From a virus: a DNA stretch of 36,956 nt. The stretch is taken from positions 1-36,956 of the IMG/VR virus record IMGVR_UViG_3300046167_000125, one strand, 5' to 3'. Under the pieces are notes generated by a model. The model was given only the letters and a program-made list of their open reading frames with translations, was not told the origin of the DNA and did no database searches. A program made the translations under genes and the position numbers. Below, in pieces: positions 1-36,813 of this stretch; positions within the stretch are counted from its first letter, which is position 1; each line of letters begins with the position of its first letter.

Positions 1-63
1 CCACAACACACACCTTAACACCGCAGCGCAGAGGCGCGCCCGCGTAGCAGATGTGGCTTAATA

Positions 64-85
64 GTGTCAAGAATGTGTCAAGAAT
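64..85. repeat. 11-bp tandem direct repeat
   Basis: The unit GTGTCAAGAAT occurs twice head to tail (64-74 and 75-85), and the start of a third unit follows. It lies at the left edge of the larger repeat array upstream of the terminase genes. It could be a protein-binding site, but no function can be read from it. Confidence 0.75.
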
Positions 86-95
86 GTGGCGCAAT

Positions 96-381
96 ACAAT
101 GCGCGGCACAATGTTTTGCATTGTCTTACATTTGACAAATGCAGTACCGAGCAAAACAATCAGCTGGCGATTGTTCGCCATTGTTCTACATTTGCCAAAC
201 TCAGTACCGAGCAAAACATTGCAATCCCGATTGTTTTACTCGGTATGCAATTGTTCTACATTTGGCAAATGTAGTACCGAGCAGAACAATGGCGAACAAT
301 GCAATCCCGATTGTTTTACTCGGTATGCAATTGTTCTGCATTTGCTAAATGGCGAACAATGAGATGCAGCGGTATACAATG
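96..381. repeat. Complex direct and inverted repeat array upstream of the terminase genes
   Basis: This stretch has no convincing gene; the short open frames across it are just repeat translations. A core of about 21 bp (ATTGTTCTACATTTG followed by a CAAA-type end) recurs at 119-139, 179-199, 249-269 and 329-349. TACCGAGCAAAACA or a one-base variant lies at 145-158, 205-218 and 275-288, and its near-perfect inverse TGTTTTACTCGGTA at 232-245 and 312-325, so two hairpins can form. A 37-bp block is exactly duplicated at 221-257 and 301-337 (80-bp period). ACAATG or CATTGT occurs at least eight times. A run of nine C follows at 382-390. The position just before terS fits a packaging recognition site or an origin; that is inference. 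Confidence 0.8.
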
Positions 382-400
382 CCCCCCCCCGGTCAAGCAT

Positions 401-428
401 TTGCCGGGTAGTGTTATTATTATACAAT
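401..428 (+). promoter_or_regulatory. Possible late promoter before terS
   Basis: TTGCCG (401-406) and TACAAT (423-428) are separated by 16 bases in an AT-rich stretch between the repeat array and terS. It is the best sigma70-like match in the 130 bases before the first plus-strand gene. The -35 match is modest, so this is tentative. Confidence 0.3.
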
Positions 429-513
429 CCACACACACGGGTGCCACCCCCCGTACCCCCTTGCCAATCACATGCCACCCAGCGTAAAATTATAAAAAAC
501 TGGAGTTAATCAA

Positions 514-1017
514 ATGGCAGGCAAGGCGTTACAAAAGCGAATACTGTCCGATGTCACCAAGCAAGGCGGCGCAGAGTATCTGTTTGAATATTTTTCTTCT
601 GGTGGCACAATGGCGCAACTTGCGACCCATTACGAGTGCAGCAGGGGTTACGTCAGCACGGCACTGCATAAGGTGCCGGAATATACTGCCGTGATAAACA
701 AGGCTCGGCAGGAGGCGGCTGACGCGCTGGTTGAGCAAGGCTTGGAGATGGTTGACGCGCTAGACGGCGGCAGCTCAACGCAGGAGATTGCTGCCACGCG
801 CGAGAAGGTGCAGTGGCGCAAGTTTATGGCTGGCTCGTATAATCAGGAGCGTTACGGCAATCGGCCTCAGACCAATGTTACGATTAGCGTGAGCGACATG
901 CACTTGGACGCGCTGCGCAAGGTTAATGCTGACTTGGCGCAGATTGATGCTGAGGACCGCCAGCGTGAGGCGATGGCTATTGACGCGGATTACGAGGATG
1001 TCACCGATGAGCAATGA
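514..1017 (+). CDS. terS: Terminase small subunit (TerS)
   Basis: A 167-residue protein directly upstream of and overlapping the large terminase, the usual position of the small subunit, which recognises phage DNA and regulates packaging. Residues around 30-55 (GTMAQLATHYECSRGYVSTAL) form a helix-turn-helix as expected for DNA binding. The middle is helical, and the C-terminus is acidic (AEDRQRE...DYEDVTDEQ). The start at 514 is supported by GGAG eight bases upstream. The call rests on position, size and the HTH; I do not recognise a specific TerS family. Confidence 0.8.
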   Translation: MAGKALQKRILSDVTKQGGAEYLFEYFSSGGTMAQLATHYECSRGYVSTALHKVPEYTAVINKARQEAADALVEQGLEMVDALDGGSSTQEIAATREKVQWRKFMAGSYNQERYGNRPQTNVTISVSDMHLDALRKVNADLAQIDAEDRQREAMAIDADYEDVTDEQ

Positions 1018-2407
1018 TAATCCGCTTGAAGAGTTTGTGCTGCGTTACCGCGACGACCCTGCGTTGTTTGTGCAGGAGGTTTTGGGCGCTACTCCGCACG
1101 ATTATCAGGCTGAGTTTCTGCGGGCTGTTGCAGACGGTGAGCGGAAGGTTAGCATTCGCAGTGGCCACGGCACGGGTAAGTCCACGTCGGCTAGTTGGAT
1201 TATGCTGTGGTTTGTTTTGCTGCGTTTTCCGAATAAGGTTGTTGTGACAGCGCCGACCAGTGGCCAGTTGTTTGATGCTTTGTTTGCGGAGTTGAAGCGT
1301 TGGATTAATGAGCTGCCACCTCAGTTGAAGGTTTTGCTTACGGTTAAGTCTGACCGGGTTGAGTTGAACGCGGCTCCTAGCGAGGCTTTTATTTCGGCTA
1401 GGACGAGCCGTGCGGAGACGCCTGAAGCGTTGGCTGGGGTTCACTCGGAGAATGTGCTGTTGGTTGTGGACGAGGCTTCTGGTGTGCCTGAGAAGGTGTT
1501 TGAGGCTGCTGCTGGCTCGATGTCTGGCCATGCCGCGACTACGATCTTGCTGAGCAACCCGACGCGCTCGTCTGGCACGTTTTACGAAAGCCAGACGCGG
1601 ATGGCAGACAGCTGGTGGACACGGCGTTGGTCGTGCATAGATAGCCCACTTGTGTCTGACGAGTTTGTTGACGAGATGCGCGCAAGGTATGGCGAGGAGA
1701 GCAATGCCTTTCGCATTCGTGTGCTTGGCGAGTTCCCTATGGCGGATGATGACACGATCATTCCGTTTCACTTGGTTGAGAGCGCGATCCATCGTGACGT
1801 TGAGGTGACGCCTGACGTTAAGCCTATTTGGGGCTTGGACGTTGCGCGCTTTGGCTCGGACAAGACTGCTTTGTGCAAGCGATATGGTAATGTTGTGACT
1901 GAGATTACGTCTTGGCAGGGCTTGGATTTGATGCAGACTGTCGGGCGCGTTATGGCCGAATACGAAGGCTTATCGCCTTCTATGCGGCCCAGCGAGATAT
2001 TGGTTGACAGTATTGGCGTTGGCGGCGGTGTGGTTGATAGGCTGCGCGAGCTTGGCGCGCCAGTCAGGGGCATTAACGTGGGCGAGGCTCCTGCTATGGG
2101 CAAGACGCACATGAATTTGCGCAGCGAGCTTTGGTTTAAGACAAAGGGTTGGCTTGAGGATCGGTCGTGCAAGCTGCCAAAGGACGACCAGCTTCTCGCG
2201 GAGTTAACTGCAATACGTTACTCGTTCACATCGTCAGGCAAGATGAAGGCTGAAAGTAAGGATGAGATGCGCAAGCGCGGGCTGAGGTCGCCTGACCTTG
2301 CGGATGCGCTCTGTCTAACAATGGCCAGCGACGCTGCGACTGCGTTATCTGGCGCGATGTCAAGTTGGAAGCAATCTATTAAGCGCAATTTGAAGGGTAT
2401 TGCATGA
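1007..2407 (+). CDS. terL: Terminase large subunit (TerL)
   Basis: The 466-residue packaging motor. It hydrolyses ATP to pump DNA through the portal and cuts the concatemer. The Walker A motif SGHGTGKS is at residues 52-59 and Walker B LLVVDEA at 151-157, with the catalytic pair D155-E156. LLSNPTRSSGTF near 181-192 is the coupling motif. The C-terminal RNase H-fold nuclease carries D278 (GLDVARFG), D334 (ILVDSIG) and D430/D433 (SPDLADAL), so all acidic positions are present. The start at 1007 was chosen over the upstream in-frame ATG at 926 because it has GAGG upstream and overlaps terS by only 11 bases. Length is typical of the family. Confidence 0.97.
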   Translation: MSNDNPLEEFVLRYRDDPALFVQEVLGATPHDYQAEFLRAVADGERKVSIRSGHGTGKSTSASWIMLWFVLLRFPNKVVVTAPTSGQLFDALFAELKRWINELPPQLKVLLTVKSDRVELNAAPSEAFISARTSRAETPEALAGVHSENVLLVVDEASGVPEKVFEAAAGSMSGHAATTILLSNPTRSSGTFYESQTRMADSWWTRRWSCIDSPLVSDEFVDEMRARYGEESNAFRIRVLGEFPMADDDTIIPFHLVESAIHRDVEVTPDVKPIWGLDVARFGSDKTALCKRYGNVVTEITSWQGLDLMQTVGRVMAEYEGLSPSMRPSEILVDSIGVGGGVVDRLRELGAPVRGINVGEAPAMGKTHMNLRSELWFKTKGWLEDRSCKLPKDDQLLAELTAIRYSFTSSGKMKAESKDEMRKRGLRSPDLADALCLTMASDAATALSGAMSSWKQSIKRNLKGIA

Positions 2408-2592
2408 AGCCAGTTCCGTTCCACAAGTTGTCACCTAAAATGAAAAATATCCGCATGAACCAATGGATCAAGTCGTACATTGGTCGAGGTTTAAGTTTGG
2501 AGGATGCTCAGCACGCAGCAAGGTGGCGCGCTGGCCATTGGAAGCTAAATGCGCGTATGGAGAAGGTTCTAGCGGATATTGAAGATGTGTGA
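2404..2592 (+). CDS. Small basic hypothetical protein
   Basis: A 62-residue protein whose ATG overlaps the terL stop as ATGA, so it is probably translationally coupled to terL. It is basic and predicted helical (RMNQWIKSYIGRGLSLEDAQHAARWRA reads as two amphipathic helices). No known domain is recognised. The position suggests a role in packaging or head completion, but that is only inference. Confidence 0.75.
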   Translation: MKPVPFHKLSPKMKNIRMNQWIKSYIGRGLSLEDAQHAARWRAGHWKLNARMEKVLADIEDV

Positions 2593-2658
2593 TATGCAGC
2601 CTGCGTGGTATTATTAATTAAACTGTGCTAATGTGCAAAAAAGCTAGAGGATAATGAT

Positions 2659-2739
2659 ATGAAACCATGTAAAGGTTGCCCCACCCCCGCAGCGTGTAAA
2701 CGTGCAGGCAAATGCCTTGCCAAAAAATACGGGAAGTAG
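2659..2739 (+). CDS. 26-residue cysteine-rich microprotein
   Basis: An ATG at 2659, preceded by AGAGGAT at good spacing, opens a 26-residue frame, MKPCKGCPTPAACKRAGKCL followed by AKKYGK. Cysteines at positions 4, 7, 13 and 19 and eight lysine or arginine residues suggest a tiny metal-binding knuckle. Similar tiny Cys-rich proteins occur near the terminase in other marine phages as far as I recall. The ribosome-binding site and tight spacing to the next gene support it being real. Confidence 0.6.
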   Translation: MKPCKGCPTPAACKRAGKCLAKKYGK

Positions 2740-2748
2740 ATATTTGCT

Positions 2749-3651
2749 ATGGGTGTTTTAGATTTTCTTTCTGATTTGTCAAAGGCTAGTAGAAAAGACG
2801 AGCTAGGCCTTGGCGGTATGCGTTCACTTTTAGGCACGCGCGGTGCTGCCCCGGAAGGCAAGCGCGGCGATGAAATGATGAACCGCACGTCCAGCGATAG
2901 TTTGCCGGGTTACTTTGATCCAGAGACACGCGAGTATGTTCCGTGGTACGTTGATTTGTTTGACGGCGGTGGCTTGAATAAGTCTGAGGGTTTGCTCAGC
3001 GATGCGCAGAAAGTAACTACTGCCGTTGACATGCTTAACACAAATGGCGCTCCTGTTCAGCGTGCAGGTCAGATGGCTCCGGGTTTGGGTAGCCAGCTTT
3101 CTGATATGGAAATGGCAAACCGTAATCGCGCTGCACAGATGGCTCCGGGTTTGGGTAGCCAGCTTTCTGACATGGAGCGTATGCAGCGAGCAAACCCACT
3201 TGAGCCATTTGGCGGGTCTGGTCCCGCAATACAGGACACTCCAGACACGTCGTATTACACGCCACCTTCGTCTATGCAAATGCCGACTTCCGCTGGTCCG
3301 GGTATGCCAAGTTATACGCCGCCTTCATCTATGCAGATGCCGACCCCAGCTCCAGCAGCAAAGCCTAGCGACTCAACACTAAACACTTTGCGTAAAAATG
3401 TTTATACTGTTGGGCCAATTGAAGCTATGGTGAACGCTTACAATAATCGGCCCGACATTCCGCTTACCCAGCCATATGCAGGCGGAGACGACACTCCTCG
3501 TTTAAGCGAAATGCAAACGTCTATGATGCAGCATCCAGCGTTTCCGCAGTTTGTTGACATTATGAAAAGAATGGGCAACGAGTCTGTGCTGCAAGACCCA
3601 AGCCAAGCATCATTCGTATTTAATAATTATCTCAAACAGATAGGTTATTAA
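2749..3651 (+). CDS. Putative virion protein with internal repeats
   Basis: A 300-residue protein of unknown function between the terminase and the adaptor gene. The N-terminal 100 residues are mixed. The middle is low in complexity, with two copies of QMAPGLGSQLSDME (about residues 108-141) and two of YTPPSSMQMPT (about 169-198). The C-terminal 90 residues look folded and helical. Pro, Met and Gln richness and the location in the structural block suggest a virion or assembly protein. The ribosome-binding site is weak (GGGAAG about ten bases upstream). It does not match any family I can name. Confidence 0.8.
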   Translation: MGVLDFLSDLSKASRKDELGLGGMRSLLGTRGAAPEGKRGDEMMNRTSSDSLPGYFDPETREYVPWYVDLFDGGGLNKSEGLLSDAQKVTTAVDMLNTNGAPVQRAGQMAPGLGSQLSDMEMANRNRAAQMAPGLGSQLSDMERMQRANPLEPFGGSGPAIQDTPDTSYYTPPSSMQMPTSAGPGMPSYTPPSSMQMPTPAPAAKPSDSTLNTLRKNVYTVGPIEAMVNAYNNRPDIPLTQPYAGGDDTPRLSEMQTSMMQHPAFPQFVDIMKRMGNESVLQDPSQASFVFNNYLKQIGY

Positions 3652-3653
3652 TA

Positions 3654-4274
3654 ATGGCAATCACAACTTACGCAGAGCTGCAATCAGCCATCACGGATTT
3701 TCTTAACCGTGATGACTTGGCTGCTGTTGCGCCGACTTTTATCTCGATGGCCGAGGCCAACTTGGGCCGCGACATACGACACTGGCGTCAGGAGAAGCGC
3801 AGCACTGCTGAGATTGACACGCAGTACAGCGCTATTCCGGCAGACTTTTTGGAGGCTGTGCGGTTTTACATTACGAGCGGAGACACTCGCCCGCTTGAGT
3901 TAATTTCGCAAGCTGAAATGCTTGACCGGAAATACCACAATCTTAACACCAGCGGCCAGCCTGCGTACTATGCGATTACTGCTGGCGAGATTGAAGTTTA
4001 CCCTGTGCCGGATGGAACGTACACGGCAGAGCTGTATTACATGGCAAACCTGCCTGCGCTGTCTGACAGCAATACATCAAACTGGTTGTTGCAGTATTAT
4101 CCTGACGCATACTTGTATGGCTCGCTAATACATTCCGCGCCATACTTGAAGGATGACGCGCGTTTGCAAGTCTGGGCGGCTTTGTATCAAAGCGCAATTG
4201 ATGGTATAAATGCTGAGAGCGAAAAATCAAAATTTGGCGGATCAGGTCGCCGCATGAAAATAAGGGCGTACTAA
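3654..4274 (+). CDS. Head-tail adaptor (SU10-type)
   Basis: A 206-residue protein beginning MAITTYAELQSAITDFLNRD, the characteristic start of the SU10-type adaptor family of podoviruses. These proteins form a ring under the portal that joins the tail nozzle to the head. Further family features are the MAEANLGRDIRHWRQE segment, IPADFLEAVRFY, and a C-terminal helix ending in a basic tail. Length is normal. The gene follows the preceding one by two bases and is likely in the same operon. Its presence argues strongly for a short-tailed phage. Confidence 0.85.
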   Translation: MAITTYAELQSAITDFLNRDDLAAVAPTFISMAEANLGRDIRHWRQEKRSTAEIDTQYSAIPADFLEAVRFYITSGDTRPLELISQAEMLDRKYHNLNTSGQPAYYAITAGEIEVYPVPDGTYTAELYYMANLPALSDSNTSNWLLQYYPDAYLYGSLIHSAPYLKDDARLQVWAALYQSAIDGINAESEKSKFGGSGRRMKIRAY

Positions 4275-4275
4275 C

Positions 4276-4656
4276 ATGAGCTTATCCAATACCTTCGAGA
4301 CGCACACACTAAACTATTTGTTTACGGCTACGTCAGTCACGCGGCCAACTGCTTGGTATGTTGCGTTGTTTACCAGCAATCCAGATGAGGATGCGTCAGG
4401 CACGGAAGTATCCGGCGGCGCATATGCTCGGCAGTCTGTTGCGTTTACTGTGTCTGGCAACACTGCGTCAAACTCAGCTGCGATTGAGTTTCCGACTGCA
4501 ACTGCCCCATATGGCACGGTCACGCACATCGGCGTGTTTGATGCTTCATCTGGCGGTAATTTGATTGCGTATGCTGCGCTGACAACCAGCAAGGCAATTG
4601 ACACGGGCGACGTGATGCGCATTCCTGCATCTGACCTTGACGTGACTATGGACTAA
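4276..4656 (+). CDS. Small virion protein, Gp80/tail-fibre-associated type
   Basis: A 126-residue beta-rich protein. The pattern WYVALFTSNPDEDASGTEVS, then GGAYARQSV, a FPTATAPYGTVTHIGVFDA segment and a GDVMRIPASDLDVTMD ending is a very common phage structural family, often labelled tail fibre-like. I recall it as a Gp80-type family; the exact name should be checked. AAGGG sits before the ATG. It lies between the adaptor and the tail-fibre region, which fits a tail or fibre-attachment role. Confidence 0.75.
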   Translation: MSLSNTFETHTLNYLFTATSVTRPTAWYVALFTSNPDEDASGTEVSGGAYARQSVAFTVSGNTASNSAAIEFPTATAPYGTVTHIGVFDASSGGNLIAYAALTTSKAIDTGDVMRIPASDLDVTMD

Positions 4657-4660
4657 GCCA

Positions 4661-5386
4661 ATGGCTGACACCACATACAGGACTGGCTTTGGCACTGGTG
4701 CATTCGGTGTCAGGGCTTACGGCGTTGATGGTGTTTTAAGAGACGGTGAAGCCATTGTTATTGGCGTCACCTCGACTGCGGCAGCGAATGTTCGCGTCAG
4801 GCTTTCTGGGTCTATCATTGCATCCAGCTCCAGCAACACGTCAGACGCCACGAGAGTTCGTGAAGTTAGCGCGTCTGCCTCAGTGTCAGCGAGCAGCACT
4901 TCCGCAGCCCAGCGCGTCCGTGAGAGCGCCTCAGAGGTATCTGCAAGTGCTGCGGGTGTTGCATCGGTTGAGCGCGTGCGTGAGCAAAGTGCAGCATCGA
5001 GCATTGCCGCGAGCAACACGGCGGCCTGCGAGAGAGTGCGTGAGCAAAGCGCAGCGGCAGCGTCTAGCGCGTCAATAAGCGCAAACGCTGTTACGGTTGT
5101 TAGCATTGCCCCGATTATATCTGCCGTTACTACAAATGTTGTAACGGTCAACCGCGTGCAGTTTAGCGGTGCTTTGATTAATGCTGCCAGTAGTATTACT
5201 TGTAATGCTATTGAAAAGTGGGAGCCTCTGCCCGGCACGGCTGAAGTGTGGACGGAGGTTGATCCTGCGTCTGAAATATGGCAAGGTGCATCTAACGCAA
5301 CCGAAAGCTGGTCTGCGGTTTCCCCTGACAATTCAGAATGGACACCAGCCCCGGCTACAGGTGAAACATGGGCAGACGCCGCATAG
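4661..5386 (+). CDS. Ala/Ser repeat virion protein with Trp repeats at the C-terminus
   Basis: A 241-residue protein with two repeat systems. Residues 45-144 are five tandem 20-residue units, each starting RVR, with Ala/Ser-rich bodies. Residues 186-241 are about six 10-residue units each carrying one tryptophan (WEPLPGTAEV, WTEVDPASEI, WQGASNATES, WSAVSPDNSE, WTPAPATGET, WADAA). The N-terminus (FGTGAFGVRAYG) is glycine-rich. Such W-x9 ends occur in marine phage tail proteins. A structural, probably tail or fibre-network role is inferred. The long minus-strand open frame here (4717-5406) is a compositional shadow. Confidence 0.8.
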   Translation: MADTTYRTGFGTGAFGVRAYGVDGVLRDGEAIVIGVTSTAAANVRVRLSGSIIASSSSNTSDATRVREVSASASVSASSTSAAQRVRESASEVSASAAGVASVERVREQSAASSIAASNTAACERVREQSAAAASSASISANAVTVVSIAPIISAVTTNVVTVNRVQFSGALINAASSITCNAIEKWEPLPGTAEVWTEVDPASEIWQGASNATESWSAVSPDNSEWTPAPATGETWADAA

Positions 5387-5394
5387 GAGAGCAA

Positions 5395-5895
5395 ATGCTT
5401 ACGCAAAGCAGGTTAAAAGAATTACTGGTTTACCATGCTGATACTGGCGTGTTTACTTGGCGTTTTGGCAGACCTAAAGCGAAAGCTGGCTCCGTGGCGG
5501 GTTCTGTAACTTGGAAGGGTTACTGGTTAATTGGCGTTGATGGCCGCCGCTACAGAGCGCATCATTTAGCGTGGCTTTACGAGCATGGTTATTTACCATC
5601 ACATCAAATAGACCACATTAATCACAACAAGCTGGACAACCGCATTGAAAATTTGCGCGAAGTTACAAACTGCCAAAACCATAAAAATATGGGGATACCC
5701 TCAAACAACAAGACTGGGTATCGCGGTGTTAGCTTTGCTAAAGACAGAGAAAAATATACCGCCCGCATAAAGGACGGCAAGTCTTACAAGAACTTGGGCT
5801 ATTTTGAATGCGCAGCAGCGGCGGCTATTGCTTATGCAAAAGCAAAAATTAAACTTGGGTATCACCCAAATCACGGTTTAAAACAGGAGGCATAA
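5395..5895 (+). CDS. HNH homing endonuclease with AP2 domain
   Basis: A free-standing homing endonuclease of 166 residues from the preferred start at 5395, where AGGAGA lies just upstream; an in-frame ATG at 5368 would overlap the previous gene. The HNH core is YRAHHLAWLYEHGYLP...QIDHINHNKLDNRIENLR, with the conserved His-Asn pair. A C-terminal AP2 DNA-binding module follows (TGYRGVSFAKDREKYTARI...YFECAAAAAIAYA). Family members nick DNA and spread by recombination. It sits exactly upstream of the tail-fibre gene and has a relative on the other side at 9204. No interrupted host gene or intron is visible. Confidence 0.93.
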   Translation: MLTQSRLKELLVYHADTGVFTWRFGRPKAKAGSVAGSVTWKGYWLIGVDGRRYRAHHLAWLYEHGYLPSHQIDHINHNKLDNRIENLREVTNCQNHKNMGIPSNNKTGYRGVSFAKDREKYTARIKDGKSYKNLGYFECAAAAAIAYAKAKIKLGYHPNHGLKQEA

Positions 5896-8800
5896 ATGGC
5901 CGATACAACAACAACGACATATGGTCTAACAAAACCTGAAGTCGGAGCCTCAGAAGATTCTTGGGGATTGAAGTTAAACGACAATCTCGATGACATTGAT
6001 AACCTGCTGGATGGCACAACGCCCATTACTGGCATTGATATTAATTCCGGCACAATTGACGGCGCAATGATTGGCGGTGCAACGCCTGCTGCTGGCACGT
6101 TTACAACGCTGACTGCAAACACAAGCCTTGGTGGCACTTTGTCTACGGCTGCGCAGCCAAACGTGACATCTGTTGGCACGCTGACTTCGCTTGATGTTTC
6201 GGGCAACGTAACCTTCGGCGACAACGACAAAGCCATTTTCGGCGCTGGGTCTCAGCTAGAAGTTTATTATGATGGTTCTACAAGTATTATTGCCGATGTT
6301 GGTTCTGGCAATTTACGGATTAAGGCAAATGACTTTCAGCTTATGGATGCTGCGGGAACAAAAAACATTATTCGTGGATATGATACTACTGGCGCAGTAG
6401 GTTTGCATTATGGCGGCTCTGAAAAACTCGCCACCACAGCGGGTGGTGTTTCAGTAACTGGAACTGTTGACACGACAGGGACTATTAGTTCTGGTGGAAA
6501 TATAGTTACTGGTACGGATACTGGTAAAATCATGGCTGGGGCATCAAATGACCTCCAGATTTATCACGATGGGTCTAATAGCTATGTAAAAGATAGCGGC
6601 TCTGGTGACTTGTACTTGCAGGGTACAGCAAACGTGCGCATTACTAATACCAGCGGTCAAAAAATGTTTCTTGGTCAAGATGGTGGTGAGGCGCAGTTGT
6701 ATTACAGCGGAGTTGAAAAACTCGCCACCACCAGCACAGGCGTAGACATCACGGGTACTTTGACCAGCGATGGGCTGACTGTAGCTGGCAACGTGTCAGT
6801 CGATGGCGGCACAATCAAGCTGGACGGGAATTATCCTGTTGGGTCAGGCAACGTGGCGTTGGGTGATGCTGCGCTGGATGATGGTAGTTTGTCTGGTAGT
6901 TACAATACTGCTATAGGCTCAAATTCCTTAACGGCTAATACAACTGGCTATAACAATACGGCAAATGGGGCATATGCACTAGGGTTAAACACTACGGGTT
7001 CCTTGAATGTTGCTGTCGGTGATAGTGCTTTATACTATAACACAACAGGGGGAACCAATACAGCTTTAGGTCGTCAAGCTCTCTACTCCAACACCACCGC
7101 AAGCAACAACACTGCGATTGGCTATCAATCTGGGTATAGTAATACAGCCGCTAACACAACTTTTGTTGGTTACATTGCAGGTCAAAACAATACTACAGGT
7201 ATTGGTGTTTCTGTTGGCTCTTATTCTTCAAACTCCAACACAACTGGGACAGCATATGTTGCGCTTGGCACTTCTGCCCTAGCATCAAACACTACAGGTG
7301 GTTTTAATACGGCTTTGGGTCATGAAAGCCTCTATTCCAACACCACCGCCAGTAACAACACCGCTGTGGGGTATCAGGCTGGGTACTCTACAACAACAGG
7401 CAGCTACAGCACTTCTGTTGGTTATCAAGCATACTACTCAAACACCACAGGTCGTAACTCCGCTTTGGGTTACGTCGCATTGCGTTCAAATACAACAGGA
7501 ACAAACAATACTGCGGTTGGGGATAGTTCTTTATATAATTCAACGACAGGCAACTATAACACAGCAGTTGGACATGAAGCACTCCAAGCAAACACCACCG
7601 CATCCTACAACACAGCCGTTGGGTATCAGGCGGCGTACAGTAATACTACTGGGCTGGCTAACTCTGCTTTTGGCACAGGTGCATTGTATGCAAATACAAC
7701 AGCAATGGATAATACTGCGATAGGTGCATATGCGCTCTATCCAAATACAACTGGTGCATCAAATACCGCAACAGGCTCTGCGGCATTACGACTGAATACT
7801 ACGGGTTCATACAATACGGCTCACGGTCAGGCTGCACTCTTCAACAACACCACCGCAAGCAACAACACTGCTGTTGGGTATCAGGCGGGGTATAGTAATA
7901 CGGCAGCGGGTGGTGTTTTTGTTGGTTATCGTTCTGGTTACGGAAACACGACTGGTATTGAAAACACGGCGATAGGCAAAGAAAGCCAGTATGCTACGAC
8001 AACAGGTCGGGACAACGTGTCGGTAGGTTCGACATCTTTGGCTAACACCACTAGTGGGTCTTATAATACTGCAATTGGCAATTACGCACTCCTCTCCAAC
8101 ACCACCGCCAGCAACAACACGGCTGTTGGGTATCAGTCGCTTTATGATAATACGACTGGGGCGGAAAATACAGCCGTTGGTCGGTTAGCACTGGCAAACA
8201 ATACCACGGCTAATCACAACACAGCTTTTGGTAGAAACGCTTACCAGACAAATACAACTGGCGCAGAGGGTGTGGCTGTTGGTTCTGGTGCATTAGCTTC
8301 AAACACAACGGGAAGTTATAACGTAGCAATCGGACGTGATACCTTAGTATCCAACACCACCGCCTCCAACAACACTGCGGTTGGGTATCAGGCTGGGTAT
8401 AGTAATACTACTGGTGCTGGTAATGTTGCGGTTGGCAATAGTGCGCTTTTGAATTGCGCTACTGGTACAAACAATACAGCGATTGGTTATCTTGCGGGTC
8501 TTGGTTTAACGAGTGGAAGTCAAAACACCTTTATCGGCCCACACGTTGCTGGGGTCGGAGCTGCTGGCTACTCTATGACCACAGGCTCCAAGAACACCAT
8601 CCTCGGTGGCTACAACGGCAACCAAGGCGGCTTGGACATCCGCACCTCAAGCAACAACATCGTGCTGTCGGATGGGGATGGTGAGCCTAGGATTAGCGTC
8701 ACTAGTAGTGGTGTAGTCAGAATGTACCAAGCTACTATTAACCCGTCGACATTATATGGCGCACGTTTTGCTCCTCAAGACGCAAATCGGGACACTCTTA

Positions 8801-9204
8801 TTCTAGGAACATCATCAGGTTCTGCTAAGCCTTTGGTTTATTTCTATAACTCGAGTGGTTATGTTGGAAGAATTGAAACAAGTGGCTCTGCTACGTCCTA
8901 TATTACATCCTCAGACTACCGCCTTAAAGAAAACGTAGTTGAGCTGACAGGCGCAACAGATCGCCTCAAGCAACTCAATCCATCACGCTTCAACTTCATT
9001 GCAGACGCAGACACAACTGTTGATGGTTTCTTAGCACACGAAGTGCAAGCTATCGTACCAGAAGCAATCTCAGGTGAAAAAGATGCAGTAGATGCAGACG
9101 GAAACCCTGAATACCAAGGCATTGACCAAAGCAAGTTAGTGCCACTCTTGGTCGCTACAATCAAAGAACTAGAGGCACGGATCACTGCACTGGAGGCTAA
9201 CTGA
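5896..9204 (+). CDS. Tail fibre with YadA-like head repeats and S74 self-cleaving chaperone
   Basis: A 1102-residue receptor-binding fibre. The N-terminus (TYGLTKPEVGASEDSWGLKL) is a common phage fibre attachment start. Residues to about 330 are generic fibre with two YYDGS/KLATT-type repeats. From about 334 to 905 there are dozens of 14-residue NTTGxxNTAxGxxAL units, the left-handed beta-roll pattern of YadA-like adhesin heads. The C-terminus is a peptidase S74 intramolecular chaperone: the Ser-Asp dyad S1006-D1007 opens SDYRLKENV, followed by GFLAHEVQ and a trimeric coiled coil (LVATIKELEARITALE). Auto-cleavage before S1006 would release 97 residues after trimer folding. It starts directly after the first HNH gene. 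Confidence 0.93.
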   Translation: MADTTTTTYGLTKPEVGASEDSWGLKLNDNLDDIDNLLDGTTPITGIDINSGTIDGAMIGGATPAAGTFTTLTANTSLGGTLSTAAQPNVTSVGTLTSLDVSGNVTFGDNDKAIFGAGSQLEVYYDGSTSIIADVGSGNLRIKANDFQLMDAAGTKNIIRGYDTTGAVGLHYGGSEKLATTAGGVSVTGTVDTTGTISSGGNIVTGTDTGKIMAGASNDLQIYHDGSNSYVKDSGSGDLYLQGTANVRITNTSGQKMFLGQDGGEAQLYYSGVEKLATTSTGVDITGTLTSDGLTVAGNVSVDGGTIKLDGNYPVGSGNVALGDAALDDGSLSGSYNTAIGSNSLTANTTGYNNTANGAYALGLNTTGSLNVAVGDSALYYNTTGGTNTALGRQALYSNTTASNNTAIGYQSGYSNTAANTTFVGYIAGQNNTTGIGVSVGSYSSNSNTTGTAYVALGTSALASNTTGGFNTALGHESLYSNTTASNNTAVGYQAGYSTTTGSYSTSVGYQAYYSNTTGRNSALGYVALRSNTTGTNNTAVGDSSLYNSTTGNYNTAVGHEALQANTTASYNTAVGYQAAYSNTTGLANSAFGTGALYANTTAMDNTAIGAYALYPNTTGASNTATGSAALRLNTTGSYNTAHGQAALFNNTTASNNTAVGYQAGYSNTAAGGVFVGYRSGYGNTTGIENTAIGKESQYATTTGRDNVSVGSTSLANTTSGSYNTAIGNYALLSNTTASNNTAVGYQSLYDNTTGAENTAVGRLALANNTTANHNTAFGRNAYQTNTTGAEGVAVGSGALASNTTGSYNVAIGRDTLVSNTTASNNTAVGYQAGYSNTTGAGNVAVGNSALLNCATGTNNTAIGYLAGLGLTSGSQNTFIGPHVAGVGAAGYSMTTGSKNTILGGYNGNQGGLDIRTSSNNIVLSDGDGEPRISVTSSGVVRMYQATINPSTLYGARFAPQDANRDTLILGTSSGSAKPLVYFYNSSGYVGRIETSGSATSYITSSDYRLKENVVELTGATDRLKQLNPSRFNFIADADTTVDGFLAHEVQAIVPEAISGEKDAVDADGNPEYQGIDQSKLVPLLVATIKELEARITALEAN
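7091..8363 (+). repeat. About 252-bp higher-order tandem repeat in the tail-fibre gene
   Basis: The word ACACCACCGC starts at 7091, 7340, 7592, 7847, 8099 and 8354. The spacings are 249, 252, 255, 252 and 255 bp, all multiples of three and close to 84 codons, or six 14-residue units. Each copy encodes NTTASNNTAVGYQ or a close variant. DNA-level conservation of one phase of the array suggests recent duplication or gene conversion. Confidence 0.85.
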
Positions 9205-9692
9205 TGGATATGACGCACGATCTTGCTCATCAGATATTTGACTACAAGGATGGGCAGCTTTTTTGGAAGGTAGATTTTCGGCATATCAAAGCTGGAACTA
9301 TGGCTGGAACAAAAGACAAAAGATACGCTTCTGTTAGGTATGGGGGTAAAAAATACCTAACACACAGAATAGTATTTCTCATGCACCATGGGTATTTTCC
9401 TGAAATGGTAGATCACATAAACAGCAACACGTTTGATAATCGTATAGAAAATCTTCGTGAAGCAAATGCAACCCAGAACGCACAGAACAGACCAGTTATT
9501 TCACGCAATAAAACTGGAGCTGCGAATGTGATTTGGGTTCCAGAGCATGAGAAATATCGTGTACGTTTAAGCGTCAATGGAAGCAGAAAATGCTTTGGAT
9601 ACTATGACGATCTTGAAGCCGCCGCTGTTATAGCAGAACAAGCTAGGCAGCAGCATTATGGTAGTTTTGTCTATAAAGGAGAAAGAACATGA
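9204..9692 (+). CDS. Second HNH homing endonuclease with AP2-like domain
   Basis: A 162-residue relative of the gene at 5395. The HNH motif runs THRIVFLMHHGYFPEMVDHI, then NSNTFDNRIENLREANATQN. The C-terminal AP2-like part reads KTGAANVIWVPEHEKYRVRL, then CFGYYDDLEAAAVIAEQA. GGAGG lies seven bases before the ATG, and the start overlaps the tail-fibre stop as TGATG. Divergence from the first copy implies separate arrival or an old duplication. It is probably mobile and not needed for virion assembly. Confidence 0.92.
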   Translation: MDMTHDLAHQIFDYKDGQLFWKVDFRHIKAGTMAGTKDKRYASVRYGGKKYLTHRIVFLMHHGYFPEMVDHINSNTFDNRIENLREANATQNAQNRPVISRNKTGAANVIWVPEHEKYRVRLSVNGSRKCFGYYDDLEAAAVIAEQARQQHYGSFVYKGERT

Positions 9693-26651: not shown

Positions 26652-26762
26652 TCAAAATATAATTGCGACCAGCATCATTAGGCCAGCGCCGCTTGCAAAG
26701 CCAAAGATAGCTCCGACAAGTCCGGCAATGTGAATTTTACGCTCTACCTCTTCGTTAATCAT
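26652..26762 (-). CDS. 36-residue membrane microprotein
   Basis: A very short gene starting in a TGATG overlap with the stop of the HTH gene before it. It reads MINEEVERKIHIAGLVGAIF and continues through a single glycine-rich transmembrane helix (GFASGAGLMMLVAIIF). GAGGGTGAG lies upstream as a possible ribosome-binding site. It is the last gene of the minus-strand operon. Function unknown; small inner-membrane proteins of this kind may alter host physiology. Confidence 0.55.
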   Translation of the reverse strand: MINEEVERKIHIAGLVGAIFGFASGAGLMMLVAIIF

Positions 26763-27529
26763 CACTCACCCTCATCAAAACAGTTATTTAACGGCTGAAT
26801 AGGTTGCTTACTAAATACCCATCGCCACTGCCGCTTGGTGTAACCCGGAACTTCCACGAAATCACGCACACGATAAACCTTGTTCGCTTGCCACATTTTC
26901 TTGAGATAGCTTGACGTGCGAGGAATGCTGTCACCCAGCAGCTCAGCCGCCTCTGCTGCCGTCACGCGCTGGTCATACGGGATCAAAGAAAACAAGCGGT
27001 TGCCTTGGTCAATGCTGTGTTGTTTGCTGGCCTCAGCTGCGCGCTGCATAGATGGGGCCATAGTTGTCGGCCGACGCGGGCCAGATGGCAGAGCTTCACG
27101 TTTGCGCTGGCGATACATGAGATTTTCAAACTCCCACAGGCAATGGCCGTATGTGATCTCGTAGCGCTCGTGCTTATCGGTTACGCCCTCCAGCTTAGCC
27201 CTCAATCGCTCTGCTGCATCTTTTTCATATCGCGCTTTAGCAGATCGAGAAGCGCTTTCTGCTCTTCCAGCCGTTGCTTTAAGTTTGGCCGCATCGCCGT
27301 CTTCTGCTCCGTCAGCATTATGCTGTTGTTGCGCTCCAGCCTTTTTATAATAATCTGAGTTTGGTCCGTACTCACGTTTTTTCCTTTCAAGTTTTATGTT
27401 CGCAGCCGAACAAATGCGATATATTGTTGACGGTGATACGCGCAGCAATTCTGCGGTCTCAATTTGTGACATGCCCTGTTGAGCGCAGTCAAGAACGTGG
27501 CGGGTGAGCGCATCTGGATCGTATTTCAT
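26762..27529 (-). CDS. Helix-turn-helix DNA-binding protein
   Basis: A 255-residue protein from the start at 27529, supported by GGAGG ten bases upstream and by ATGA overlap with the zinc-finger gene; the longer in-frame start at 27580 is not. Residues about 8-40 (HVLDCAQQGMSQIETAELLR, then SPSTIYRIC) form a clear helix-turn-helix. A charged linker (about 50-125) follows. The last 70 residues (VTAAEAAELLGDSIPRTSSY) look like a second winged helix. It follows the primase-helicase gene in the same operon. A replication or transcription role is plausible; I cannot decide which. Confidence 0.75.
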   Translation of the reverse strand: MKYDPDALTRHVLDCAQQGMSQIETAELLRVSPSTIYRICSAANIKLERKKREYGPNSDYYKKAGAQQQHNADGAEDGDAAKLKATAGRAESASRSAKARYEKDAAERLRAKLEGVTDKHERYEITYGHCLWEFENLMYRQRKREALPSGPRRPTTMAPSMQRAAEASKQHSIDQGNRLFSLIPYDQRVTAAEAAELLGDSIPRTSSYLKKMWQANKVYRVRDFVEVPGYTKRQWRWVFSKQPIQPLNNCFDEGE

Positions 27530-27693
27530 TGGTAGTCCTCCAAGGGGTCTATCTGGCCTATGCCGTTGCAGACTTCGCATTCTTCCATGTGGCTTTCAAA
27601 GTCGCCATGCCAAGTTGAGCTTTGGCGAACCCAAACATCGCGCTCAACCTCGCCCTCGCCATCGCATTCAGGGCAGTTTATCCAATCTTCCAT
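27526..27693 (-). CDS. Small DnaJ-like zinc-finger protein
   Basis: A 55-residue protein from ATG 27693, chosen because AGGAGG lies six bases upstream; the in-frame ATG at 27720 has none. CPECDGEGE (C7, C10) and CEVCNGIGQ (C39, C42) are two CxxCxGxG half-sites that together can bind one zinc ion, as in DnaJ. It sits between the primase-helicase and the HTH protein. Partner and function unknown. Confidence 0.8.
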   Translation of the reverse strand: MEDWINCPECDGEGEVERDVWVRQSSTWHGDFESHMEECEVCNGIGQIDPLEDYQ

Positions 27694-30892: not shown

Positions 30893-31693
30893 TTAAAACG
30901 CTTCTTCACTGTCCATCCATGCTGGCAAGTGGATCGTGTTTAAGTCAGGCCAATTCGTGACATATTCCTCAGTCTCAATCGCCTGCTTTATGTCAACCAA
31001 TGCAGAAAGCATACGGTTGTGAGCGTGGCGCAAATACATCTCCGAAAGCTCATGGCACGCAGTGACGTGCGGCGCGTCCTTCTCGATGCAGATGAAGATA
31101 AAGTTCTCCACACGAATGCCGTTCAGTTTCAGGACGTGCATGTAAAATGCAGCCTGCAAATCGTAGCCGAACTGACGCACAGAACGCTCAAAGCCTCTGG
31201 GTGATGCGTCTTGTGTCGTTTTGATGTCCAGCACAATGCCTGCGTTGCGCAGGAGGCCATCTGGGCGCGTCTTTAGGTCAATGTCAATGTCTGGATCAGT
31301 GGCGAAGAATGAAGCCTCAGGCCAGCATGTCAGGATTTGTGAGCAAATGATTTCGCCATGCGGTTTTGCAGGCAGGCATCTGCCATTCTGTTTGCCAGAT
31401 CATAATCGGCCTCGGTGAGCAATATCTTGCCAGCAGCATCGCATTCGGCTTTCATGTCCAGCCATACGTTTCCGCGACGTGTCTCAGGGGCCGCGCACAA
31501 CAAGGTTTTTCTCTGGCTCAAGCAAGTAAGCGTGAACCGCGCTGCCCAATGCAAATGCCGGGCTATCCTTACGCTCGGCGCCAAACAAATGCGCAATGCT
31601 CTTGTTTGCTGCGGTCTTGATTGACGTTGAGCCAAACGCATGATGCGCATGATACTCTTCGTTTGACATGTCTTCCGATTTGATAATTGTCAT
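30893..31693 (-). pseudogene. RecE-like/PD-(D/E)XK exonuclease with two frameshifts
   Basis: The gene starts at 31693 (GGAGG five bases upstream) and reads MTIIKSEDMSNEEYHAHHAF, then SIKTAANKSIAHLFGAER, to TGA at 31486-31484. The family continuation (ETRRGNVWLDMKAECDAAGK, then LLTEADYDLANRMADACLQN) is in the +1 frame from the CCCC run at 31487-31490 to TGA 31330-31332. The last part (CWPEASFFATDPDIDIDLKT, RPDG, then IVLDIKTTQDA, then YDLQAAFYMHVLK) is back in the first frame after the AAA at 31336-31338. The catalytic Asp, RPDG and Asp-x-Lys are all in this last part. One C removed and one A added restores about 266 residues. A 5'-3' recombination exonuclease paired with the SSB is inferred. 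Confidence 0.8.
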
Positions 31694-33841: not shown

Positions 33842-34307
33842 CGACTTCGCCCTCCCACACAATGCCATGCTCGGCAAAGCGCTCCATTTGGTATTTGTTT
33901 GGCTTGGTATGCAGAAGGCCAGTGATGCGCGGATATATGCCACCAAAATCCTTGGCTTGGCCGTAAGACAAGCGCGGTCCATCGCCAGCATCACCGCGAA
34001 GAGCGCCGGCAAGCGCAAGCGATTTCTTGCCAATGTCGCGCTTGTCTTCGTTTTCAGATGTGTTCCAGCTGTATTCTTCGCACAAGAAGTCAGCTGCGCG
34101 GCAGAATCCAATCACTTCACTATAGCAAAAGTCCATCAAATAGCTGACATCTTCAGATATGGACATGCTGGTCCAGCGCAAATCTTGCAGGGCTTCAAGC
34201 TCATCGCCATCAAGCTCCGCAATAACATCTGCGCGATCAAGAATGATTTGCTTGACGCCTTCCCAAAATTTAACTTGCTCTGCGGATGGTTTGGTTTCGT
34301 TTGTCAT
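33831..34307 (-). CDS. Hypothetical early protein
   Basis: A 158-residue acidic protein, the first gene of the minus-strand early operon, with GGAG eight bases before the ATG. It is helical at the start (SAEQVKFWEGVKQIILDRAD), with DVSYLMDFCYSEVIGFCRAA in the middle. Being first behind the early promoter it may be a host-takeover protein, but no family is recognised. Confidence 0.75.
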   Translation of the reverse strand: MTNETKPSAEQVKFWEGVKQIILDRADVIAELDGDELEALQDLRWTSMSISEDVSYLMDFCYSEVIGFCRAADFLCEEYSWNTSENEDKRDIGKKSLALAGALRGDAGDGPRLSYGQAKDFGGIYPRITGLLHTKPNKYQMERFAEHGIVWEGEVDEH

Positions 34308-34338
34308 TTGTTAAACTCCATGTTTGTGTTGTGCCGCC

Positions 34339-34368
34339 AGTATAAACACGAAAAAAACATATCTGCAA
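34339..34368 (-). promoter_or_regulatory. Early promoter for the minus-strand operon
   Basis: Read on the minus strand, TTGCAG (34368-34363) and TATACT (34344-34339) are 18 bases apart. They lie about 30 bases before the first minus-strand start codon region. The 131-base gap between divergent genes (34308-34438) also has AT-rich TATATT/TATAAA words that may serve the plus-strand genes. The good match makes this the likely main early promoter. Confidence 0.55.
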
Positions 34369-34438
34369 GTATATTTTCCACTGGCTCCCTATATTTTAAA
34401 CATATATAAAGAAAACAGACACAAGAGGAGTCAAAACC

Positions 34439-34603
34439 ATGTCAGATAAGAAGCGCCTAATCAATTTCGCAGAAGAATATGACCGCATAATCACAGAAGC
34501 CGCGCGCAGGTCAGGGCTATCTTTCAGCGCGTTCTGCCGGAGCGCAGCACTAGAAAAGGCGGCAACAATTGTGGATCATGTACAGCAGCCGAGGGCTGAT
34601 TGA
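34439..34603 (+). CDS. Ribbon-helix-helix DNA-binding protein
   Basis: A 54-residue protein with GAGGAG upstream. The pattern KKRLINFAEEYDRIITEAAR, then SGLSFSAFCRSAALEKA is a typical ribbon-helix-helix (CopG/Arc/DUF1778-like): one short strand and two helices. It sits in the divergent promoter region between the two transcription arms, so it may regulate them. It overlaps the next gene by TGATG. Confidence 0.75.
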   Translation: MSDKKRLINFAEEYDRIITEAARRSGLSFSAFCRSAALEKAATIVDHVQQPRAD

Positions 34604-35076
34604 TGCTTATCTACGGATGCGACCCGGGGTTTACCGGGGCCGTGGCTTTATACTGGACCGATACGGGCAAGCTGGAAATCCACGACATGCCAACGGTGAA
34701 AAACACCAAAGGCAAAACGGTCATAAACTGCCCGGCATTGCTGGACGTGCTACAGAACGAAAGCGGCGAGCGCTGCCTTGCCGTCATCGAGCAAGTGGCC
34801 GCAATGCGCGGGCAAGGCGTGTCCAGCATGTTTCGCTTTGGCGAAGGCTATGGGATGCTGCAAATGGGATGCGCTGCAAACAAGCTGCCCGTGCAATTCG
34901 TAACGCCTGCAAAATGGAAAGGCTATTTCCGATTGAGCCGGGATAAAGGCGTGTCGCGCGGTCTCGCAATGCAGCGCTTTCCAGATAACGCCAGCGACTT
35001 TGGCAGGGCGAAAGATGACGGAAGGGCAGAAGCGGCCTTGCTTTGCCTTTACGCGGCAGAAAATATGGTTTCATAA
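34603..35076 (+). CDS. RuvC-like Holliday junction resolvase
   Basis: A 157-residue RNase H-fold endonuclease that cuts four-way junctions formed in replication and recombination. The catalytic acids are D7 in GCDPGFTGAVAL, E63 in AVIEQVAAMRG, and D138/D139 in KDDGRAEAALLCLYA. Length is close to bacterial RuvC. The start at 34603 (TGATG overlap) is used; TTG at 34600 is an alternative. It lies directly next to the iteron-like array. Confidence 0.9.
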   Translation: MLIYGCDPGFTGAVALYWTDTGKLEIHDMPTVKNTKGKTVINCPALLDVLQNESGERCLAVIEQVAAMRGQGVSSMFRFGEGYGMLQMGCAANKLPVQFVTPAKWKGYFRLSRDKGVSRGLAMQRFPDNASDFGRAKDDGRAEAALLCLYAAENMVS

Positions 35077-35218
35077 TTGGATCATAATTGCTGAGCCATA
35101 TAAATAAGGGCTTTAGATGGGTAATTATGATAATTATGATGTGATTATGATCTAATTATTAATTTTGCCCAGCCTCATCATAATATCATAAAATGCCTAT
35201 AGGCATTATGATTATGAT
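35071..35218. repeat. Iteron-like array, candidate replication origin
   Basis: ATTATGAT or its complement ATCATAAT occurs exactly at 35081-35088, 35124-35131, 35133-35140, 35144-35151, 35177-35184, 35205-35212 and 35211-35218, and one variant (ATTATGAA complement) at 35070-35077. Two-thirds of the copies are on the plus strand. Several spacings are 9-11 bp, about one helical turn. A perfect 16-bp palindrome, AATGCCTATAGGCATT, lies at 35192-35207. The stretch 35077-35247 has no gene and is AT-rich. Clustered repeats, a palindrome and AT-rich DNA next to replication genes suggest an origin or a complex operator. Confidence 0.8.
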
Positions 35219-35247
35219 CTGGGGCGAGGATGTAGGTGAGGAATGAT

Positions 35248-35499
35248 ATGGCATATGATTGGGTGAAGTGGGTCAATCAAAAGATTAAGAAGGGCGAGGC
35301 GATTGTTCGCCCTGTAGGCTATCATAAAGGGGGGGAGCGGTTGCAGGGGTTTAGATCAAGGCTTGACGCCTGCCGGGATTTAGCAGAGCTTGAGGGCTTC
35401 GCCAATCGGCGCAGGTTTGATCCAACATTGCCGAGATGGAACGCCAGCGAGCGTGATGCAATCCTGCGGCGCAAGTTTGAGATGGAGAATAAGAAATGA
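35248..35499 (+). CDS. Small basic hypothetical protein
   Basis: An 83-residue protein from the ATG at 35248, preceded by GTGAGG; a GTG at 35236 is the longer alternative. It is basic with segments VKWVNQKIKKGEAIVRPVGY and RLDACRDLAELEGFANRRRF. It is coupled to the next gene by ATGA. No known family; DNA binding is plausible given its place beside the repeat array. Confidence 0.7.
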   Translation: MAYDWVKWVNQKIKKGEAIVRPVGYHKGGERLQGFRSRLDACRDLAELEGFANRRRFDPTLPRWNASERDAILRRKFEMENKK

Positions 35500-35768
35500 G
35501 TGAAGCAAAAAACACAAGGTCGGAAGTGCTGGCGATTGCCGGAGACCTAATCAATGGCGACCGTCAGGCCCATTACGGAACGCCGCAAGAAAACTTCGGG
35601 ACATGCGCCGACATGTGGACGGCTTACCTTGGCCGGGACATATCACCCGCTGATGTATGTCATATGATGGCGCTGCTAAAGATTGCACGGCTAAAGCGTG
35701 GGCCGCATAGGGACAGCTCAATTGACGCCTGCGGTTATATGGCGCTCGGGGCTGAGGTGGCAGAATAG
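35496..35768 (+). CDS. DUF6378-like phage protein
   Basis: A 90-residue protein with the well-known pattern RSEVLAIAGDLINGDRQAHY, then GTPQENFGTCADMWTAYLG, then VCHMMALLKIARLKRGPHRD and DACGYMALGAEVAE. I know this as the DUF6378 family, common in phages and of unknown biochemical function. Length is normal. Confidence 0.88.
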   Translation: MSEAKNTRSEVLAIAGDLINGDRQAHYGTPQENFGTCADMWTAYLGRDISPADVCHMMALLKIARLKRGPHRDSSIDACGYMALGAEVAE

Positions 35769-35773
35769 GTCTA

Positions 35774-35790
35774 GGGCTTGATCTAAGCCC
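35774..35790 (+). other. Small hairpin after DUF6378-like gene
   Basis: GGGCTT (35774-35779) pairs with AAGCCC (35785-35790) around GATCT. No T run follows, so it is not a clear terminator. It may be an RNA-processing or stability element upstream of the true terminator. Confidence 0.4.
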
Positions 35791-35834
35791 GGTTTGAGGG
35801 CTAGAAAGGCTTTGCGGGTACTTCTCCTCCCAAT

Positions 35835-35886
35835 CGCCCGCAAACTAGCTCGGCACGGCCCCAAAACGTGCCGGGCGTCTTTTTTA
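35835..35886 (+). terminator. Branched intrinsic terminator
   Basis: CGGCACG (35851-35857) pairs with CGTGCCG (35867-35873). An outer CGCCCG (35835-35840) can pair with CGGGCG (35872-35877), and TCTTTTTT follows. It separates the DUF6378-like gene from the next one, which has its own good ribosome-binding site. Confidence 0.7.
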
Positions 35887-35900
35887 CAGGAGCCGGGTAA

Positions 35901-36101
35901 ATGTCGTTCCAGATTGACTTTCGTATGATGCTCAATTGCGAGGATACGGAGCAGCAGGAGATTGTGACGGGTGAGCTGATCGACCACGTTGAAGATCAAT
36001 TATCTGCGGGTGTGCCTGTGGAGCGAATGATGCAGGGGCTTGCAGAGGTTATTCTTGAAATGCACGATATGATAAGCCCAGAGGGTGAAACGGTGCATTA
36101 A
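35901..36101 (+). CDS. Small acidic hypothetical protein
   Basis: A 66-residue acidic helical protein with AGGAG before the ATG (MSFQIDFRMMLNCEDTEQQE, then VPVERMMQGLAEVILEM). It stands alone between two terminators. No family recognised. Confidence 0.7.
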   Translation: MSFQIDFRMMLNCEDTEQQEIVTGELIDHVEDQLSAGVPVERMMQGLAEVILEMHDMISPEGETVH

Positions 36102-36132
36102 AAAAAAGCCCGGCGCGGTGGCCGGGCGTTTT
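36101..36132. terminator. Two-way terminator between converging genes
   Basis: GCCCGGC (36108-36114) pairs perfectly with GCCGGGC (36121-36127) around GCGGTG. Seven A precede it, giving seven T in the minus direction, and GTTTT follows in the plus direction. It sits between the plus gene ending at 36101 and the minus gene ending at 36150, so it can stop both transcripts. Confidence 0.88.
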
Positions 36133-36149
36133 GATTGGTATTGTGGGGA

Positions 36150-36332
36150 TTATTTCACGCAGGGCGATAATGCGACAGGGAATGTCTCACCAATCTCAAG
36201 CATGCAATCTATAGCCGCAATCTTTGCCTCCTCTAGCGTATCAAAACTGGCGTTAGATAGGCTCTTGTGAACGCGGCCAACAAAACTATATCGGCCAGAT
36301 GGGGTTTTCATTATTGTTGTGGTTTTAAACAT
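36150..36332 (-). CDS. Small hypothetical protein
   Basis: A 60-residue protein with AGGAGG upstream. MKTPSGRYSFVGRVHKSLSN, then FDTLEEAKIAAIDCML has the three-strand-plus-helix look of AP2- or integrase-arm-type DNA-binding modules. This similarity is weak and may be coincidental. Confidence 0.65.
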   Translation of the reverse strand: MFKTTTIMKTPSGRYSFVGRVHKSLSNASFDTLEEAKIAAIDCMLEIGETFPVALSPCVK

Positions 36333-36344
36333 TTGTTTACCTCC

Positions 36345-36461
36345 TTACAGGTTAAGAAATAATACAGCGCCGATGACAAGCCCGGCGCAAACGCCAAGGC
36401 TGATCTGGATCAATGCGGCCCTGACTTGCTGGCGAATTGCTTTGCTTTGGCGGCGTGTCAT
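36345..36461 (-). CDS. 38-residue membrane microprotein
   Basis: It starts in a TAATG overlap with the preceding gene, with GGAGG seven bases upstream. A basic N-terminus (MTRRQSKAIRQQVRAAL) is followed by one transmembrane helix (ISLGVCAGLVIGAVLFLNL). The coupling and ribosome-binding site make it likely real. Function unknown. Confidence 0.6.
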   Translation of the reverse strand: MTRRQSKAIRQQVRAALIQISLGVCAGLVIGAVLFLNL

Positions 36462-36784: not shown

Positions 36785-36813
36785 TGTCTTTCTCCTTGTT
36801 TGTGTTGTGTCGT

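Follow-up and report, generated by a model that had tools for sequence, protein, structure and literature searches.

The region upstream of the terminase genes

We begin by considering the DNA upstream of the terminase genes in IMGVR_UViG_3300046167_000125, a whole IMG/VR record of topology class linear, whose 36,956 bases were analysed at full length and are called the window here. Rightward head, tail and lysis genes occupy about 0.5-26.5 kb; from about 26.7 to 34.3 kb the genes run leftward and include those for a helicase-primase, an SSB-like protein and exonuclease (PHROGs, 40 proteins scanned); no integrase or repressor was found among these 40 proteins. The phage is podovirus-like, with a portal similar to those of podoviruses including Octadecabacter Antarctic DB virus 2 and phiM5. 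Its host is probably a member of the Rhodobacteraceae because the single relative in the GTDB contigs (TerL 84%) sits in the bin Rhodobacteraceae bacterium Water_Bin34, which is thin evidence, the contig being single and short and the bin metagenomic. Over window 1-9222 and 34191-36956 the sequence matches contig L162 without a difference, and in that contig 187 further bases connect both window ends; this segment (L162:2767-2953), absent between window end and start, holds the palindrome TGACGTWACGTCA beside a likely leftward promoter.

Several other places in the window drew attention. The Exonuclease VIII-like protein (phrog_412) at 30893-31650 is found as two ORFs covering different parts of the profile, as a split gene, a frameshift or a sequence error would give. 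The gene for a 1102-aa tail protein has internal repeats at 7010-8440 with copies 65-91% identical, and ORF 2749-3651 contains a 41-bp near-exact direct repeat at 3070-3176.

The subject of this study is a repeat array placed between divergent transcription units, directly upstream of terS and terL. The features of the region are as follows.

23-46, plus strand: conserved left block GCAGCGCAGAGGCGCGCCCGCGTA, found whether the array is there or not; a loose pattern recognises it in 60 of 71 distinct upstream regions
64-96, plus strand: three 11-bp repeats (GTGTCAAGAAT, GTGTCAAGAAT, GTGGCGCAATA), the local copy of a family-wide tandem array, type C
94-102, plus strand: 9-bp direct repeat ATACAATGC, left copy flanking the array
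103-373, no strand: palindromic repeat array, type A, 271 bp, with units of 60, 70 and 80 bp, an incomplete fourth unit and an internal 10-bp period
127-143, plus strand: X1, 17-bp palindrome TRCATTTGNCAAATGYA
144-158, plus strand: Y block GTACCGAGCAAAACA, copy 1
187-203, plus strand: X2, two mismatches
204-218, plus strand: Y block, copy 2
220-257 and 300-337, plus strand: 38-bp exact duplication, 80 bp apart
232-246, minus strand: inverse Y block, copy 1
257-273, plus strand: X3
274-288, plus strand: Y block, copy 3 (GTACCGAGCAGAACA)
312-326, minus strand: inverse Y block, copy 2
337-353, plus strand: X4, three mismatches
374-382, plus strand: 9-bp direct repeat ATACAATGC, right copy flanking the array
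382-408, plus strand: conserved C-run hairpin CCCCCCCCCGGTCAAGCATTTGCCGGG, right edge of the variable slot
406-425, plus strand: the block with the strongest conservation, GGGTAGTGTTATTATTATAC, with exact copies in 53 viral contigs
461-490, plus strand: promoter-like site TTGCCA-18-TAAAAT, 5' of terS, by consensus match alone
514-1017, plus strand: terS, terminase small subunit (Pfam Sf6_terminase PF20901; phrog_1482)
926-2407, plus strand: terL, terminase large subunit

Each unit of the array consists of the palindrome X followed by Y (GTACCGAGYARAACA), and an inverse Y stands ahead of units 3 and 4. The initial annotation, made from the letters alone, had described four copies of a core and three blocks with two near-perfect inverses, and both descriptions hold: exact copies of the core ATTGTTCTACATTTG stand at 180 and 250 and copies with one or two changes at 120 and 330, while TACCGAGCARAACA lies at 145, 205 and 275 with inverses at 232-246 and 312-326, one mismatch each. 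The exact duplication it reported is present with the 80-bp period and measures 38 bp, not 37. The 11-bp tandem repeat is likewise present, at 64-88, and is a separate feature that is widespread in relatives lacking the array. The region is non-coding, as had been said, since the carriers do not preserve the reading frame of the ORF at 51-362 (103 aa), which runs over the array. It is also correct that this is not a CRISPR array, for the spacings are 60, 70 and 80 and the intervening sequence is itself repeated and inverted.

The claim that the region is more ordered than ordinary intergenic DNA is borne out by the main measures. The longest exact direct repeat measures 38 where 1000 dinucleotide shuffles give no more than 13, and 77 8-mers recur inverted where the same shuffles give no more than 29; among 684 segments (318 b each) of the genome no other attains these values, the best inverted count elsewhere being 31, at 35.06 kb. 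At 18, the longest single inverted match is unremarkable when taken alone, one shuffle having given 22. With up to two mismatches, GTRCCGAGYARAACA is found at five sites in the window, all within the array region, where 0.38 is expected. The block as a whole is one long imperfect palindrome with fold z values of -9.3 and -10.2 (RNA, two strands) and -10.3 (DNA). Across seven aligned rows, two of which (the window and L162) are one phage differing in extent alone, the long hairpin is 97.5% paired with three double changes, which 10 of 500 shuffles reach, and the local X palindromes are 87.3% paired, also with three double changes, which 76 of 500 shuffles reach; there is little variation in either. 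No AT periodicity of 10-11 bp, as for curvature, is found in the array carriers.

A number of identities were tried and rejected. Rfam gives no match to a known structured RNA family at gathering score. A mobile element or MITE is rejected on the single locus in the window and the lack of copies at other sites; the 9-bp flanking direct repeat and the long inverted repeat would suit such an element, but the alleles of the slot that hold something else have no clean empty site. The initial annotation had also raised a decoy and a comparison with host sequences. The array motif has no match in phages or plasmids, its exact pattern has none in genome contigs, and a search of 295 genomes from the likely host family, allowing up to three mismatches, does not find it; of 394 genomes of this family four have matches, and these are only 23-42 bp long (E 0.0015-0.005). 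A host mimic or decoy is rejected on these results. Two loci matched by a looser pattern (L165 and L166) are a methyltransferase-like coding sequence and chance, and no phage gene, host sequence or database record was found that tracks the array.

Interchangeable cassettes in a fixed slot

Comparison with relatives draws on 80 of 572 confirmed terL loci and on a terS search that gave at least 80 loci. The array-specific patterns match six phages only: that of the window (L162), L160, L161, L163, L164 and L009. Two of these six lack one unit, L161 a 60-bp unit and L164 an 80-bp unit, which is the kind of scrambling in relatives that the initial annotation had named as speaking against its packaging proposal. 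Among the matches listed, a 100% identical TerS is accompanied by 13 distinct upstream regions, five with the array (window/L162, L161, L009, L164 and L160, the TerS of the last truncated by the contig end) and eight with another module in its place.

The array is therefore not an obligatory recognition sequence of TerS, since eight of the 13 regions with the identical protein have another module; its absence from relatives with the same terminase is likewise what the initial annotation had said would refute its proposal. Nor is either array alone required, because L009 and L160 lack the 11-bp array and others lack type A. A pac site whose sequence is read by TerS, the first suggestion of the initial annotation, is thus very improbable, despite the repeats, the position of the array next to terS and its near-constant distance to terS. 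In the pac site of phage P1, phased short repeats form a fixed recognition sequence. The type C 11-bp array resembles it as phased short repeats beside a packaging locus; the P1 repeats are fixed, however, whereas the arrays of the window family differ under identical TerS. What survives of the suggestion is the wider idea of a packaging or control region, which is still plausible from the position, the conserved flanks and the terminal repeats of phiM5.

Relatives exchange several kinds of repeat cassette at one fixed place, the slot, and the array is one of these kinds. The left edge of the slot is a conserved block (the palindrome TGACGTWACGTCA and GCGCGCCCGCGTA), its right edge consists of the conserved C-run hairpin, GGGTAGTGTTATTATTATAC and the terS leader, and the whole is flanked by leftward genes on one side and the rightward terS/terL operon on the other. 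The cassettes are unrelated in sequence and have periods of about 10 bp (type A), 11 bp (most relatives) or 7 bp (others). We define type B by 7-bp repeats such as GGTATAC with a cut of six heptamers, and type C by three or more G[GT]C[AG] cores set at exact 11-bp intervals. From the matches listed, the census takes in 72 distinct upstream regions with a length of 200 b or more; type A is found in 6 of them and the left palindrome in 41. The 41 comprise 6 regions of type A, 6 of type B and 33 of type C, four of the A and two of the B regions also scoring as C, and two that reach no threshold, one of which (L158) has five heptamers and so falls under the type B cut.

The periods are also seen in the autocorrelation, where lag 10 is the top lag in all six type A carriers (z 3.3-4.7), lags 7, 14 and 21 reach z 4.0-11.4 in L150, L146 and L058, and lag 11 appears in the type C regions. 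The 11-bp phasing lies beyond all 1000 shuffles in each of the 19 tested type C loci without an A array; in the A-array carriers L003 and L107 it is reached by 1 and 0 of 1000 shuffles, and the non-C loci L078, L108 and L057 (23, 70 and 845 of 1000) do not stand out. In L150, L146, L058, L141, L147 and L203 the slot is taken by 7-bp tandem arrays of unrelated, GTATACG-like sequence, with up to about 25 recognised heptamers.

Coding sequence may also stand in front of terS. An ORF of at least 150 aa is present there in 17 of the 72 upstream regions, and both kinds that were examined match HNH_3, one with a score slightly under the Pfam cut-off. A sister group (TerS about 73-82%) has an HNH-type gene of 177 or 198 aa directly ahead of terS (L109:342-938; L043:3987-4520; L068:3983-4516), placed in L109 and L043 between the C-run hairpin and the terS leader. 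Separately, three relatives (L008, L015 and L046, genomes G001, G002 and G004) have a TerL 94-99% identical to that of the window and a TerS only about 80% identical, and lack its helicase-primase; this is strong mosaicism.

Among five carriers, the array diverges by 4-8% and terS third positions by 4-7%. Against L163 the array differs by 9-13% and terS third positions by 29-30%, measured outside the overlap of terS with terL. The pattern fits, and does not decide for, near-neutral change together with some constraint or recent exchange.

A possible genome-end role and competing explanations

The reading that we tentatively prefer, as a possible one, is that the array belongs to the region controlling genome ends and packaging, as a variable segment of short repeats comparable with SRL/SRR of T7; phages would exchange it as a whole cassette, and TerS would not read its individual bases. 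SRL and SRR are the names of the T7 short-repeat arrays beside its direct terminal repeats. By analogy with them, the slot would belong to the genome-end and packaging control region of the phage, and its cassettes would act like arrays adjoining terminal repeats. The cassette DNA may aid the processing of concatemers or the loading of packaging or replication proteins, through its form or repetitiveness and not through a fixed sequence read by TerS; exchange could proceed by recombination through the conserved flanks, with units gained or lost along the way.

In favour of a genome-end role are the swapping of cassettes under identical TerS and the known ends of related phages. The closest characterised TerL relative, phiM5 (MF074189, 55% identity), has an annotated 357-bp direct terminal repeat, which we confirm to be identical at both ends; a C-run hairpin lies at about 314-345 of it, and the repeat ends 36 bp before terL. 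The likeness to the window is this C-run hairpin shortly upstream of terL. On the other side, the phiM5 terminal repeat includes terS coding sequence, its repeats are weak and its TerS is not similar to that of the window. The terminal repeat of T7 is 160 bp long; directly inside its left copy lie repeats spaced 13 bp apart (z 8.2), and a weaker array precedes the right copy (z 2.9). The window family resembles T7 in having short-period arrays at a non-coding, putative genome-end region of a podovirus, with the lag-10 signal in all six carriers. It differs in that the T7 element is CCTAAAG at 12-13 bp spacing, to which the units of the window family are unrelated, in that arrays of three periods replace each other here, and in that an adjoining terminal repeat is here only putative; the want of common sequence with the T7 arrays counts against the comparison. 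Among the Rhodobacteraceae, the portion of the cobavirus report considered here gives terminal repeats of 159-173 bp, from PacBio reads, for cultured Roseobacter-group cobaviruses, and describes the corresponding region of SIO1 as an ORF-free stretch between gene modules (PMC6775973). These marine podoviruses share with the window a non-coding stretch between modules with a conserved G+C-rich part; swapped arrays are not mentioned in that portion (PMC6775973).

Contig ends offer a further, indirect view. Within 100 bp of the right block we count 8 ends in 44 whole contigs where 1.2 are expected, against 1 in 39 at a control site in terL, a weak contrast that involves a single control site (Fisher p 0.04). 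The ends lie at -45, -50, -86, +39, +43, +83 and +84, some beside variable bases. Strain variation may explain the clustering because there are several positions with adjacent variable bases, and as packaging cuts these ends are suggestive only. Further points stand against the genome-end reading. The window TerS matches the Sf6 family, and Sf6 is a headful phage. None of these records has end repeats flagged by IMG/VR. Two of the 41 regions with the left palindrome fall below every array threshold, and in the five carriers compared, divergence of the array roughly keeps pace with that of terS third positions, as expected of neutral DNA.

This last point is shared with the explanation that the array is functionless, a tolerant spacer where slippage and template switching enlarge tandem and palindromic repeats. 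Such turnover would agree with arrays that are unrelated, vary in copy number and are freely replaced, and with the weak covariation; we nevertheless judge it somewhat unlikely: the comparison with L163 suggests constraint or recent exchange, the slot almost always holds repeats of some kind, and a near-perfect 240-bp palindrome is expected to be unstable unless it is maintained. A regulatory role along the lines of the operator array of the initial annotation, in which the palindromes X and Y form an operator or enhancer-type array bound by a dimeric regulator of the divergent leftward and rightward promoters, would account for the location between divergent units, for 17-bp palindromes in three to four copies at constant distances from terS, and for the six promoter-like matches in window 1-1000 where 1.0 is expected. 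It is unlikely, as the X motif is found nowhere else in the window and in none of the 295 likely-host-family genomes (both at up to three mismatches), and a comparison of six carriers with 19 chosen non-carriers gives no carrier-specific gene among 11 window ORFs at 32.1-36.8 kb. Moreover, G001, G002, G003 and G005 (loci L008, L015, L021 and L052, the upstream region of L015 being the same as that of L011) all lack the array and yet encode the sole clear HTH protein (26762-27580) at 94-97% identity. Matches to this protein in three other genomes (G009, G010 and G008; L231, L232 and L233) contain in-frame stops.

A replication origin, another suggestion of the initial annotation, here with iteron arrays as alternative alleles, is a role for which we see a still smaller chance. 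Short direct and inverted repeats are present, transcription diverges at the locus, and the cumulative GC skew runs up from the locus to about 26 kb and then down to 34 kb, although this skew is confounded with gene direction. The helicase-primase is not matched to the array allele, because two phages with another array, G003 and G005, have it at 98% and 97% identity, and no initiator gene tracks the array among the 11 ORFs tested. Another candidate lies at 35.08-35.24 kb, AT-rich and with 9-11 bp tandem repeats. These repeats (TAATTATGA, window 35080-35240) stand before a rightward gene, are near-identical in some relatives and replaced in others, and are possibly another origin or a swapped control region. 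The slot may also be read as a dedicated one: whole arrays that differ in sequence and in period (7, 10 or 11 bp) would be exchanged there, some array being kept while its identity changes, as an escape from a host defence or phage satellite that recognises genome-end or origin repeats, with the arrays acting by repetitiveness and not by sequence. The contest of ICP1 with PLE is an arms race over origin repeats; for the present phages we regard such an escape as a long shot.

Consequences for the phage group

The new element here is the exchange of unrelated arrays in one slot. Swapped arrays upstream of terS are a subject for which no description was found in the open-licence PMC literature with the search terms used. 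Repeats that adjoin terS should accordingly not be called a pac site before relatives with an identical terminase are compared. If the reading of the slot as a genome-end and packaging control region is right, the control or packaging end of a common group of marine phages tolerates or needs an array, and not a particular one. The form of an array would then be separable from its sequence, and the naturally swapped alleles would offer a means to probe what an array does, in a setting comparable with the T7-type arrays, which are known and poorly understood.
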